64,000 bases of DNA from Vagococcus zengguangii (GTDB taxonomy: Bacteria; Bacillota; Bacilli; Lactobacillales; Vagococcaceae), in the NCBI RefSeq assembly GCF_005145005.1, contig NZ_CP039712.1, forward strand, positions 2,017,001-2,081,000, written 5' to 3'. Both the position numbers and the translations under genes were made by a program. The notes under the pieces were generated by a model. The model worked only from the letters and a program-made list of their open reading frames with translations. It ran no database searches and was not told where the DNA came from. Below, piece by piece: positions 18,036-42,518 of this stretch. Each line of letters opens with the position of its first letter. The first letter of the stretch is position 1.

Positions 18036-18080
18036 ATCTTGCCACTCCTTTCTAGAGCAGCCGCATAAATATACAACTAT

Positions 18081-18174
18081 GCAGCGAATGCGAAAACAAA
18101 ATCGCGGGTCTCCCCTTCGTCCCGGAGGCAACATCCCATCCTCCAAGCACTTAACGCTCTGTCTTCTACTCTGT
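18081..18174 (-). promoter_or_regulatory. Tetrahydrofolate (THF) riboswitch
   Basis: On the minus strand the leader reads CAGAGTAGA, GCGTTAAGTG, then a GGAGG ... CCTCC stem enclosing ATGGGATGTTG, followed by GGGACGAAGGGGAGACCC and a closing strand GCGATTTTGTTTTCGC. The GCGTTAAGTG and GGGATGT blocks and the order of stems match the THF riboswitch consensus, a class often found before folT. The start codon is about 46 bases after it. Gene control probably acts on translation or early termination; no clear T-tract terminator is seen. Confidence 0.78.
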
Positions 18175-18263
18175 TTTAATACGCGTTTATTTTAACACAA
18201 ATCGTATAAAGTAAACAGAATTATTTCTTAATGACAATAGCATAATTATTTGATAATCGTATG

Positions 18264-35540: not shown

Positions 35541-35750
35541 TCAACAATCATCCGCTGAAATATCACAGACTGTTGGCTCGAAACTTGAGAAACCTTCGTC
35601 ACTTGTTTTAATTAAAAAATACGGTGTTACGGGTGAACCATCAAACACTTCACCTTCAACTAGTGTGACATACAGCTCGAAACCACTCCAACCTTTACGA
35701 ATAATCTTGGCACCCTTCTTTAATTGCGGTAATACTTCTTCAAATGTCAT
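35541..35750 (-). CDS. DUF2829 (Tad2-like) small protein
   Basis: 69 residues. MTFEEVLPQLKKGAKIIRKG followed by WSGFELYV matches the DUF2829 start; PYFLIKTSDEGFSSFEPTVCDISADD matches its end, where most relatives continue W..P..DILA.DW. Here the last residue is Cys followed by a stop, so the C-terminus may be slightly cut. DUF2829 includes Tad2, a phage protein that binds the signalling nucleotide of Thoeris defence; chromosomal copies may have other roles. No Thoeris gene is visible in the window. It overlaps and precedes the SDR gene. The start has no strong site beyond a purine-poor AACGATG context. Confidence 0.72.
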   Translation of the reverse strand: MTFEEVLPQLKKGAKIIRKGWSGFELYVTLVEGEVFDGSPVTPYFLIKTSDEGFSSFEPTVCDISADDC

Positions 35751-35853: not shown

Positions 35854-36543
35854 TTATGAATTAACAGTTTTGTTTGATCCTTGTAGACGGTTAACCAATA
35901 ATTTACCTAACACTAAAATCGCACCGAAAATTAATGGTACGGCTGGTGTATGGCTAATATTTGGTACTAAACCATCAACAAATTTTGCAATCGCATGATC
36001 TTCAACAAACATTTTTCCTGCTGTATAAGCAATCATCGCTGCCCCAATCCAAATTAAAATCGGATACTTATCCATCAACTTAATGATAACTTGACTACCA
36101 AAAATAATAATTGGGATACTCACAGCTAAACCAATGACTGCTAAACCAAAGTGCCCGTCAGCTGTCCCAGCAATTGCTAGTACGTTATCTAAACTCATAA
36201 CTAAGTCAGCCATTAAGATCGTACGAATCGCTGAAAAATAAGAGCCACCTGATTCTTTAATATGGGCATCTTCATCCGTGTCCGTTTTTAGTAAATCGTA
36301 AGCAATATATAATAGTAATAAACTACCAACAATTTTCACATACGGTAACATTAATAATTGAACAGCAATTAACATTAGGATAACTCGTAAAATAATTGCG
36401 CCTGCTGTTCCGATCATAATCGCATTTTTACGTTTACTTTCTTCCAAACCACGTGTTGCTAAAGCAATAACGACAGCATTGTCTCCACTTAAGACAATAT
36501 CAAACAAAATAATTGACGCTAGTTTCGTTGCAAATTCTAACAC
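35854..36543 (-). CDS. TerC family membrane protein (YkoY/YceF type)
   Basis: Integral membrane protein of 229 residues, seven helices. The family signature is clear: FDIVLSGDNAVVIALATRGL with charged residues inside helix 1, and the second repeat LMADLVMSLDNVLAIAGTAD. TerC proteins are linked to manganese export or metallation of exported enzymes and to tellurite resistance. The start is GTG 36541-36543, nine bases after AAGGA; the frame runs 16 codons further with no similarity. Its promoter at about 36630-36660 is flanked by inverted repeats. No yybP-ykoY riboswitch is recognisable upstream. Confidence 0.87.
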   Translation of the reverse strand: MLEFATKLASIILFDIVLSGDNAVVIALATRGLEESKRKNAIMIGTAGAIILRVILMLIAVQLLMLPYVKIVGSLLLLYIAYDLLKTDTDEDAHIKESGGSYFSAIRTILMADLVMSLDNVLAIAGTADGHFGLAVIGLAVSIPIIIFGSQVIIKLMDKYPILIWIGAAMIAYTAGKMFVEDHAIAKFVDGLVPNISHTPAVPLIFGAILVLGKLLVNRLQGSNKTVNS

Positions 36544-36613
36544 ATTAAAACATCCTTCTTTATCTAGTTTAAAAATACCACAACTAAACACGAAACTTAT
36601 CGGCTCATGAACA

Positions 36614-36687
36614 CTTGTGAAATTTCCCTTACAAATTATAACGGAGGAGCAAGAAAAATCAAAGTGTTATACATCAAATTTCACAAG
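36614..36687 (-). promoter_or_regulatory. TerC promoter flanked by 12-bp inverted repeats
   Basis: CTTGTGAAATTT (36614-36625) and its exact complement AAATTTCACAAG (36676-36687) bracket a minus-strand promoter TTGATT, 16-base spacer, TATAAT (-10 near 36635-36640). The arms are about 50 bases apart. This looks like two operator half-regions for a looping or cooperatively bound repressor. The remaining part of 36544-36862 holds the DUF2798 promoter and leader. Confidence 0.55.
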
Positions 36688-36784
36688 AAATTAGAAATTT
36701 TTCATGAAAACAATGCAAATCATTAGTTTTGATTTTTTATTTATGTTAATCTACAAAAGGTTAAAAATATAATAGCGTATAATG

Positions 36785-36842
36785 GTTCAGCAAAAAACAG
36801 CTACACGTTTCGACGTGTAGGTATTCTTTGCTGAACTTTTTT
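36785..36842 (+). terminator. Leader terminator before DUF2798 gene
   Basis: GTTCAGCAAA (36785-36794) pairs with TTTGCTGAAC (36827-36836), followed by TTTTTT. Inside, CTACACG and CGTGTAG form a second stem (36801-36820). Candidate -10 boxes TATAAT lie just upstream (near 36768 and 36778), so transcription would meet this terminator within about 60 bases and before the GGAGG of the next gene. It suggests attenuation. Confidence 0.7.
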
Positions 36843-36862
36843 ATGCTTACAGGAGGACAAAC

Positions 36863-37354
36863 ATGGATTTTCATATGAAGTTACCACGTAATGCTAAAGA
36901 AGGGATTTTATTCACACTGATTATTGCCTTTTTATCAGTTAATTTGATTGCGCCTATCATCTCAATGTTAGAAGCCGGCTTTACAATGGACACTTATACT
37001 ACTATCTTGAAAAAAATACCCTTTATCTTCATAACGGTTTTAGTTGTCGTGTCATTGTTACACCCGTTAGGCTCAAAATTAGCACAAAAAATCGTGGGGG
37101 AAAACGATAGTTTCAATTCAAAAATCATTATTGACACACTATGCACTGTTTTCTTCATGTCAATGGTGATGACCGTTATTGGTAGTTGGTTCGGAATGGG
37201 GGAAATATCACTAGCACCATTCAAAACATATTTCCAAAAATGGCCACGTAATTTTGGTGTGGCCTTTGCCATTGAATTGTTAGTGGCACAACCTATCGCA
37301 CGTGCCGTGATGAATGCCATGCATAAAAAACAAGACGCTAAATTAGCAAAGTAA
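36863..37354 (+). CDS. DUF2798 family membrane protein
   Basis: 163 residues with four helices arranged as two similar halves (KLPRNAKEGILFTLI... and WPRNFGVAFAIELLVAQP), the DUF2798 pattern. The segment ELLVAQPIARAVM is its most conserved part. Function is unknown; some relatives sit in efflux or stress loci. ATG follows ACAGGAGGACAAAC. Single gene, preceded by a leader terminator and followed by a terminator shared with the HAAS gene. Confidence 0.8.
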   Translation: MDFHMKLPRNAKEGILFTLIIAFLSVNLIAPIISMLEAGFTMDTYTTILKKIPFIFITVLVVVSLLHPLGSKLAQKIVGENDSFNSKIIIDTLCTVFFMSMVMTVIGSWFGMGEISLAPFKTYFQKWPRNFGVAFAIELLVAQPIARAVMNAMHKKQDAKLAK

Positions 37355-37356
37355 CG

Positions 37357-37390
37357 AAAAAAAAGAAGCCTTAACGGGCTTCTTTTTTTT
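37357..37390. terminator. Bidirectional terminator
   Basis: AAAAAAAAGAAGCC (37357-37370) pairs with GGCTTCTTTTTTTT (37377-37390), loop TTAACG. It ends the DUF2798 gene on plus and the HAAS gene on minus, whose stop codon (37371-37373) lies in the loop. Confidence 0.9.
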
Positions 37391-38186
37391 CCAAATATTT
37401 TACAACACCTACAACGATTACACCCATTAAAACCAGTCCAATGAATGTAATTTTTTCTTCAGACCAAGTTGTGAAATAATATAAAGCTTGTTGTACCAAT
37501 CCGCAGCACCCAACTAGCGCTCCTATTCGATACAACCAACGCCATCCCTCACCAAATCGAGAGCTGATATCACAAATCAACATAATCACGATAAACAAGC
37601 CAATTATCAACACATTATATGGAAAACTAATCGTGAAATTCCAAGTATTTGGTAAAAAAGTTGCTATATAACCACTAATCCCCAAAAATATCATTGGAAG
37701 CATTCCATACTTGAACATATCGAGATATTTATTTTTCACCTTTTGGTACACCGATTTTTTAGTCATCTGTATAAATAGTCCCACATATATCGGGACAATA
37801 ATAATGGACATAGCGTAAAACAATGGATTAATGGTCGCAACTTTCGATCCACCAAAATCCGTTATCATAAAGGCTAACCAAAAAATCGCTACAATAAATG
37901 TTACTAACTTAAAACGAGATTTCCAACTAGAAGGCGGGGTATTTTTTAATAATTCATCAGCGATTGCCTGAGAATCTTGACCAAAGAATTCTTCTGCTCT
38001 TTCACCATGCGACTGTGCTTCTACTAAGTCAACGGCAATTTGATAGATCTGTTCATTCAATTTCTCCTCATCCAAAAAAATACTGGATAAACCTAAGTAC
38101 TGTTGAATTTTACCGAAAAACACTTTATTTTTGGGCGTTAACTGTTCTGCCAATTGATTGGCTTGTTCACGATAGTTTTTAGACAT
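37371..38186 (-). CDS. HAAS/DUF1129-type membrane protein paired with PadR
   Basis: 271 residues: N-terminal about 90 residues soluble and helical with EKLNEQIYQIAVDLVEAQSHG and GERAEEFFGQDSQAIADELL, the HAAS signature, followed by six to seven membrane helices. Such proteins are nearly always the partner of a PadR-type repressor, as here, where the genes overlap by eight bases. They may sense or modulate envelope stress, but the activity is unknown. Its start overlaps the PadR stop region and GGAGCG lies ahead. Confidence 0.78.
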   Translation of the reverse strand: MSKNYREQANQLAEQLTPKNKVFFGKIQQYLGLSSIFLDEEKLNEQIYQIAVDLVEAQSHGERAEEFFGQDSQAIADELLKNTPPSSWKSRFKLVTFIVAIFWLAFMITDFGGSKVATINPLFYAMSIIIVPIYVGLFIQMTKKSVYQKVKNKYLDMFKYGMLPMIFLGISGYIATFLPNTWNFTISFPYNVLIIGLFIVIMLICDISSRFGEGWRWLYRIGALVGCCGLVQQALYYFTTWSEEKITFIGLVLMGVIVVGVVKYLEKKEAR

Positions 38187-41294: not shown

Positions 41295-42518
41295 CGATTG
41301 GAAACATTCAAAACAACACAGCTCTAAAACCAATATCCAATCTTAATCTTTTTGACAATCGTTTTGGAAACATTCAAAACAACACAGCTCTAAAACTAGC
41401 TTGCAATACACCATCATATTCTTTCAGTTTTGGAAACATTCAAAACAACACAGCTCTAAAACTATATGCCTATCATGAAGAGCACCCACGCCGTTTTGGA
41501 AACATTCAAAACAACACAGCTCTAAAACACGTTCTTCTTCGCTAGGCTCTGGTCCTTGGTTTTGGAAACATTCAAAACAACACAGCTCTAAAACAACAAC
41601 GAGCGAACAGCGAGGCGTAGTTCAGTTTTGGAAACATTCAAAACAACACAGCTCTAAAACTCGAATTGGGAGCTGGGTGGATGAAAGGAAGTTTTGGAAA
41701 CATTCAAAACAACACAGCTCTAAAACGCTCGTAAGCTTCAGCGAATTCTAGTAACGGTTTTGGAAACATTCAAAACAACACAGCTCTAAAACAGAATTGC
41801 TTTAGTAACTTCATCTATTTGAGTTTTGGAAACATTCAAAACAACACAGCTCTAAAACTTTCAGATAAAAGCATATCAGAATCTTTAGGTTTTGGAAACA
41901 TTCAAAACAACACAGCTCTAAAACACTTATCAGAATTGGTGGAGTTAGCAGAGTGTTTTGGAAACATTCAAAACAACACAGCTCTAAAACTTGGGCAAGC
42001 TAAACTTTCGATAATTTGTAGTTTTGGAAACATTCAAAACAACACAGCTCTAAAACAGGTTAAACAGTAAGCTTTTTGGAGCTGAAGTTTTGGAAACATT
42101 CAAAACAACACAGCTCTAAAACGTGATTACGTGACATTTATCCATGAAGAATGTTTTGGAAACATTCAAAACAACACAGCTCTAAAACAACCAATCAATT
42201 TATCAATCGAAACTGCCAGTTTTGGAAACATTCAAAACAACACAGCTCTAAAACAAGGTATCAGTCGTGTAATGACTTCTGAAAGTTTTGGAAACATTCA
42301 AAACAACACAGCTCTAAAACTTCCGAAAGCTACGTTTGCATCTGTTGAGTGTTTTGGAAACATTCAAAACAACACAGCTCTAAAACTCGAAGATTAAATA
42401 TAAGGTAAAGGCTAAAGTTTTGGAAACATTCAAAACAACACAGCTCTAAAACATTGGAATTACTTTTTCGTTGACCCAGCGTGTTTTGGAAACATTCAAA
42501 ACAACACAGCTCTAAAAC
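41295..42518 (-). CRISPR. Type II-A CRISPR array, 19 repeats and 18 spacers
   Basis: 36-base repeats every 66 bases with 30-base spacers throughout. In transcript orientation (minus) the repeat begins GTTTTAGAGCTGTGTTG and ends TTGAATGTTTCCAAAAC. All repeats read the same except the outermost one at 41295-41330, whose first three bases in plus orientation differ; it is the leader-distal, oldest end. Spacers are all different from one another. The leader lies at 42519-42603 next to csn2, so the newest spacer is 42453-42482. Confidence 0.99.

Follow-up and report, generated by a model that had tools for sequence, protein, structure and literature searches.

The leader of a DUF2798-like gene in Vagococcus zengguangii carries what looks, judging from its letters and those of its relatives, like a conserved and so far unlisted attenuator of riboswitch-like build. 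The gene (36863..37354, + strand) lies in a 64,000-nucleotide stretch of DNA, referred to here as the window, and its open reading frame encodes a membrane protein of 163 aa with four long predicted helices, as judged by Pfam and a predicted structure of pLDDT 75. Ahead of the gene, positions 36784-36842 fold as an intrinsic terminator, in agreement with the initial annotation; this consists of a hairpin recognized by folding and stem geometry (P2; 36784..36837, + strand) and a T6 run evident in the sequence (36837..36842, + strand). The stem of 10 bp with a nested 7-bp CTACACG/CGTGTAG described in that annotation exists, with the sizes corrected to 11 pairs in the outer stem (36784-36794 with 36827-36837, the outermost pair being G-U) and 8 pairs in the apical stem (36801-36808 with 36813-36820). 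The energy of P2 is -27.1 kcal/mol, compared with -14.6 +/- 2.8 kcal/mol in shuffled sequences (z-score of -4.5; 0 of 200 shuffles equal), and the leader folded from its putative start at 36764 has a z-score of -6.7. The T6 run ends at 36842, with the ribosome binding site AGGAGG (36851..36856, + strand) following after 8 nt and the ATG at 36863 after 20 nt. Because the upstream neighbor, a TerC gene recognized by its domain (35854-36546), sits on the - strand, the terminator does not belong to the end of a + strand gene, a point already made in the initial annotation. In the minimum-energy fold, an outer helix, P1, surrounds the terminator by pairing 36774-36779 with 36842-36847 (span 36774..36847, + strand), and it was found in just part of the relatives.

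We collected 29 leaders, defined as retrieved loci with a T-run 3' of a match to the core expression. The terminator hairpin recurs in these relatives though its own sequence varies, and the layout is that of an attenuator, with a terminator kept in the leader. The loop TTTCGA, for which conservation had been anticipated, differs among relatives; the conserved part is instead a 17-nt core, GCGTATAATGGTTCAGC (36775..36791, + strand; defined by invariant columns and by the covariance model R1), which begins 5' of the interval originally annotated. This core and close forms of it sit at the foot of the terminator hairpin in the relatives' leaders, with 10 columns invariant and 3 more nearly invariant in all 29; an alignment of 19 leaders contains 13 invariant columns, namely 10 of the core and 3 of the T-run. 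Core-led DUF2798 orthologs occur in the window's order and in Clostridia.

The core lies inside the transcript, as indicated by the position of sigma70-type promoters in the 29 leaders, the window's included. These promoters lie 5' of the core with a mean score of 9.6 versus 7.4 in control windows and a median promoter-to-core gap of 18 nt (interquartile range 16-21 nt), and one leader (L023) has a perfect TTGACA-17-TATAAT upstream of the core. The corresponding candidate in the window, TTGATT-17-TACAAA (36729..36757, + strand), is weak and matches the relatives' promoters in position; its score of 8 compares with 8, 8, and 7 for its controls, and it is therefore not established. The TATAAT at 36778-36783, the position at which the promoter had previously been supposed, belongs to the conserved transcribed motif. 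As a -10 element it would be accompanied by a best -35 averaging 2.7 of 6 letters, and since better, sigma70-like promoters lie upstream of the core, we rejected it as a promoter for the family and regard it as part of the RNA element.

The flanks of the core pair with one another. Together with the invariant GC/GC, they form a hairpin, P0, in 26 of the 29 leaders, its stem of 4 or more pairs closing a 13-nt loop with the consensus GUAkAAn(4)UCA. The 3' strand of this hairpin doubles as the terminator's 5' arm, and P0 and P2 are therefore mutually exclusive. The stems exchanged between leaders include GUGC/GCAC, GCGC/GCGC, ACGC/GCGU, UUGC/GCAA, UUUACnGC/GCGUAAA, and UCAACUGC/GCGUUGA. P0 was first spotted by eye in 22 leaders, tested there, and then tested on all 29; it is present in all seven leaders that were added later (L076, L084, L087, L089, L090, L091, and L101), and two found later still (L127 and L133) have, by eye, the stem ACGC/GCGU. 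An alternate antiterminator of the kind previously suggested is thus found in 26 of 29 leaders, each combining a terminator with an exclusive, conserved antiterminator, and not in the window copy, where P0 does not go beyond 2 pairs (L003 has 2 and L037 has 3).

Several comparisons support the pairing. When foreign right flanks were offered as P0 partners, 0 of 50,000 permutations were as good as the true partners, with the same outcome for the 27 distinct flank pairs, and shuffling of each leader's own left flank matched the true pairing in 0 of 400 trials. The foreign-partner test gave 2 of 20,000 for 18 leaders (17 of the window's order plus L016) and a weak 911 of 20,000 for the other 11, for which shuffles gave 0 of 300. 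In an alignment of 28 distinct rows, 73.8% of P0 cells were paired versus 64.1% in shuffles, covariation was 0.286 versus 0.127, and double changes numbered 21 versus 8.0 (0 of 500 shuffles in each case); these shuffles ignore ancestry. Pairs showing a double change (4 versus 3.6; 335 of 500) and further pair types (10 versus 9.6; 261 of 500) were no more numerous than in the shuffles. Paired cells and covariation were each lower in slid registers than in the true one, and for the bulged register a slide of +1 was equally high (0.207 versus 0.190). P1 was considered as the main switch and set aside: although true P1 partners outdid foreign ones on average (1 of 20,000 permutations), the helix is poor or missing in many leaders.

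Five leaders (L018, L020, L025, L034, and L116) contain the core in circularly permuted order, stem-CAGC-5 to 7 nt-GCGUAkAAU-stem', with the stems GUUG/CAAC, UUGG/CCAA, UUGG/CCAG, AUCAAA/UUUGAU, and UGGA/UCCA. The true partners were the best of 120 arrangements, a figure that rests on five sequences with flanks picked by eye. Here the core itself falls within the 5' arm of the terminator, so that the two folds are again incompatible. The existence of both orders suggests that the recognized unit is an internal loop, GUAkAAU opposite CA, closed by GC/GC and enterable from either side.

The element is closely tied to one gene family. Matches to the protein were found in 2 of 4 genomes of the genus (own included), 13 of 29 of the family, and 143 of 395 of the order. 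Among the best 20 matches of the order (E ≤ 1e-38), 14 have the core and one (L034) has the permuted form; neither form was found in the other 5 of these 20 orthologs (L004, L036, L039, L041, and L042). The leader of L039 resembles a decayed copy and was excluded from the count, and L036 and L041 have in common a downstream oxidoreductase-like frame. A search of GTDB contigs returned 10 loci, identified by title as Aerococcus agrisoli, seven Oscillospiraceae or other Clostridia, and two spirochaete MAGs; five have the core, three the permuted form, and two neither. Of 395 genomes of the order, 19 contain the DNA pattern GCGTADAANKGWTCAGC, at one place each; 15 of these places lie ahead of a DUF2798 gene or remnants of one, and the other 4 fall in other sequence that lacks the hairpin and T-run. 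The backward control pattern matched 1 genome. In the order to which the L019 genome belongs, a looser pattern matched 31 places, spread over 30 of 394 genomes. Of the 30 places examined, 7 carry the hairpin: 6 precede a DUF2798 ortholog (truncated in L084), and the seventh is L076. The gene at L076 encodes a 232-aa membrane protein, nameless in Pfam and NCBIfam, with a weak alignment to the family (hhalign probability 8%, P = 0.004). In the sample of the window's class the pattern was found in 10 of 131 genomes, with the hairpin only at the window's own place, and in that of the class of G397 it was found at 12 places in 9 of 126 genomes, comprising 3 DUF2798 leaders (one being G397 again) and 5 two-hairpin leaders. 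Of the distinct places found by pattern that have the hairpin, 23 of 24 precede a DUF2798 ortholog or remains of one. The DUF2798 genes of L050, L058, L064, and L084 are broken or truncated, with the leader element intact.

Other leaders encountered in these searches have a different anatomy. Five loci in three Clostridia-class genomes (L129, L130, L131, L135, and L136) reach at most 9.7 bits with the model and adopt another fold, and were not counted as members. Near their pattern match at ~1500 they have a CGGC-AGAGCGUAAAAACGGUCA-GCCG hairpin and a separate terminator, located before the same kind of gene in 3 of 5 (MatE in L130), and this two-hairpin anatomy resembles that of guanidine-IV/Gd4v leaders. 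In a more distant DUF2798 branch (L108-L113), the leaders have, ~92-105 nt before the match start, a terminator of another type and a short frame near the start site beginning MVV or MIV, and no leader has an Rfam match at the gathering score. The leaders of L005-L011, L036, L041, and L042 have other attenuator-like hairpins (by eye none in L042) and short GTG frames (VNIT/VKIT; VC..) within ~10 bases of the presumed start.

By sequence, the window copy is a member of this family. With R1 built from the 27 other leaders, the only match in the 64 kb up to E 10 was at 36766-36800, with 37.6 bits and E = 5.1e-8. Two leaders outside the model, L127 and L133, scored 42.0 and 39.5 bits, and the best other match in 53 loci was 20.3 bits (L102-L104 repeat model sequences). 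The window copy may nevertheless be degenerate, since in it, as in the sister species, only the two invariant pairs of P0 are left; the genus may have lost the switch, or the core may be bound in another context, e.g., beside P1. That the copy has decayed outright, leaving a constant terminator that would damp expression, seems to us rather unlikely. It would fit a P0 of just 2 pairs in both gene-bearing species of the genus and a window promoter that is not established, but the two species have the same 17-nt core to the letter, and the copy in the window still scores 37.6 bits.

We think it somewhat probable, on comparative grounds, that the element is a compact transcription attenuator in which P0 is the antiterminator and P2 the terminator of an ON switch. 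By default, the nascent RNA would form P2 and its U6 run, and RNA polymerase would stop ahead of the gene; the structure is evident here and its function is inferred. In the relatives, the segment 5' of P2 would first fold as P0, for which the covariation argues, and serve as antiterminator. The energy of P0 ranges from -2.2 to -7.4 kcal/mol across the 26 leaders that form it, and that of P2 from -10.4 to -25.5 kcal/mol in 28 of 29 (the value for L101 came from a wrongly chosen T-run). As P2 is so much the stronger, the terminator should win unaided, hence an ON switch; and as P0 is so much the weaker, something would have to stabilize it, with the conserved loop as the natural binding site. 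Once P0 is bound, P2 would not form and the gene would be read. In the window's species, where P0 is nearly lost, the copy may be deregulated or may work by the core alone.

As for the trigger, our first choice would be direct binding of a small molecule or ion to the RNA, with a binding protein a close second. This preference rests on the retention of the core across distant groups, its occurrence in permuted form as well, and the lack of a linked regulator gene. We put forward, tentatively and at rather less than an even chance, an undescribed riboswitch class with a sensor of ~30 nt, built on an internal-loop core (GCGUAkAAU facing CAGC) in two circular permutations that share strands with the terminator, and used almost wholly for one family of small membrane proteins in distant Firmicutes. 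A competing reading, which we consider unlikely though deserving of attention, is antitermination by an unlinked RNA-binding protein that stabilizes P0, as in LicT or ANTAR systems. The RAT of LicT/BglG is a hairpin that overlaps a terminator and prevents its formation when bound, and P0, short and with one strand in common with the terminator, would suit such a target in size and position. Against this, the core is not a pair of hexaloops, and the neighborhoods of the 28 loci read share no regulator gene, as judged from the starts of reading frames; among the core-bearing loci read, no neighboring gene at all is shared apart from the sister species.

Two further readings are much less probable. 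Attenuation by a leader peptide, with a ribosome on a short upstream frame setting the fold, could be suspected from an ATG within the core in 14 of 29 leaders and from the short frames close to the start site in other DUF2798 branches. The ATG is, however, missing in the other 15, and no conserved frame, length, or stop is common to the 29 leaders; we therefore rejected an upstream reading frame as the regulator and hold this mechanism to be very unlikely. Least probable of all is that the core is a DNA operator bound by a repressor or activator, with the hairpin acting only as a terminator: the strict 17-nt sequence and its steady distance 3' of the promoter would suit an operator, but covarying P0 stems and a permuted form would not be expected of one.

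The leader reaches the gathering score of no Rfam family, in line with the initial annotation, which saw no known class in it. None of the 4227 families of Rfam 15 matched the window leader at the gathering cut-off, and no leader of a relative reached a gathering score in scans of three sets of loci (14 at E ≤ 5, 9 at E ≤ 5, and 9 at E ≤ 2). The sub-threshold matches, VrrA on L133 (37.2 of 50 bits, E = 0.0055), SNORA77 on L021 (25.6 of 42), SNORD26 on L007, and NrrF against L010, look like chance. In the accessible portions of the sources, three described systems come close in architecture. The HMP-PP riboswitch (thiS motif) is a very small, terminator-embedded aptamer with two exclusive folds that acts as an ON switch (PMC6478431). 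It resembles the present element as a small sensor sharing strands with an intrinsic terminator; it differs, as far as that text describes it, in its conserved terminator loop and thiamin-precursor genes, whereas here the loop varies and the gene is DUF2798. Guanidine-IV and its variant Gd4v are terminator-controlled ON switches ahead of transporter-like genes (PMC7736828, PMC9788692), built, according to the portions available, from a first hairpin linked through a pseudoknot to a second, which is the terminator; here P0 overlaps the terminator and no terminator loop is conserved, a comparison of architecture and not of consensus letters. ANTAR targets, like P0, include a hairpin that overlaps the terminator stem (with its second hexaloop in EutV systems) and that blocks the terminator when bound, as P0 would (PMC8934654). 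According to the same portion of that source, they comprise two hexaloops with A1 and G4, unlike the single hairpin, 13-nt loop, and lack of a visible linked regulator here (PMC8934654). In the literature searched, one paper names DUF2798, in a predicted interaction network, and none mentions the domain alongside a riboswitch; a search with core strings returned, among the matches listed, papers on unrelated subjects that contain only the two short RNA strings.

The protein itself matches Pfam DUF2798 with 21.6 bits, below the gathering score of 23.5. A Pfam scan of four proteins up to E 10 gave DUF2798 in 3 of 4, at or below cut-off, and no transporter family above cut-off. Neither a PDB sequence search (E ≤ 0.1) nor a fold search with the pLDDT 75 model (E ≤ 0.001) found a match, and assignment to a known fold or exporter family was set aside on these Pfam, PDB, and fold searches. 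A search for viral copies matched 3 stretches, of which 0 were relatives. Downstream, the gene is followed by a terminator usable from both strands (37356..37391, from the sequence). Between terC and the DUF2798 leader there is an inverted repeat, CTTGTGAAATTT/AAATTTCACAAG, at 36614-36625 and 36676-36687 with its halves 50 bases apart. Elsewhere in the window we observed a gene of 69 aa with a Thoeris anti-defense 2-like (Tad2-like) domain (35541-35750, - strand; E = 2.3e-18) adjoining a short-chain dehydrogenase gene, a CRISPR array (41361-42518) of 18 repeats matching CRISPR-DR22, and a tetrahydrofolate riboswitch (18080-18175, - strand).

A sensor core that exists in two circular permutations would be a useful case for the minimal size of a natural sensor RNA. 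What triggers the leader's switch is probably what the DUF2798-like protein handles, which offers a first handle on this membrane-protein family; should the riboswitch class prove true, its ligand would point to the substrate of the DUF2798 family.
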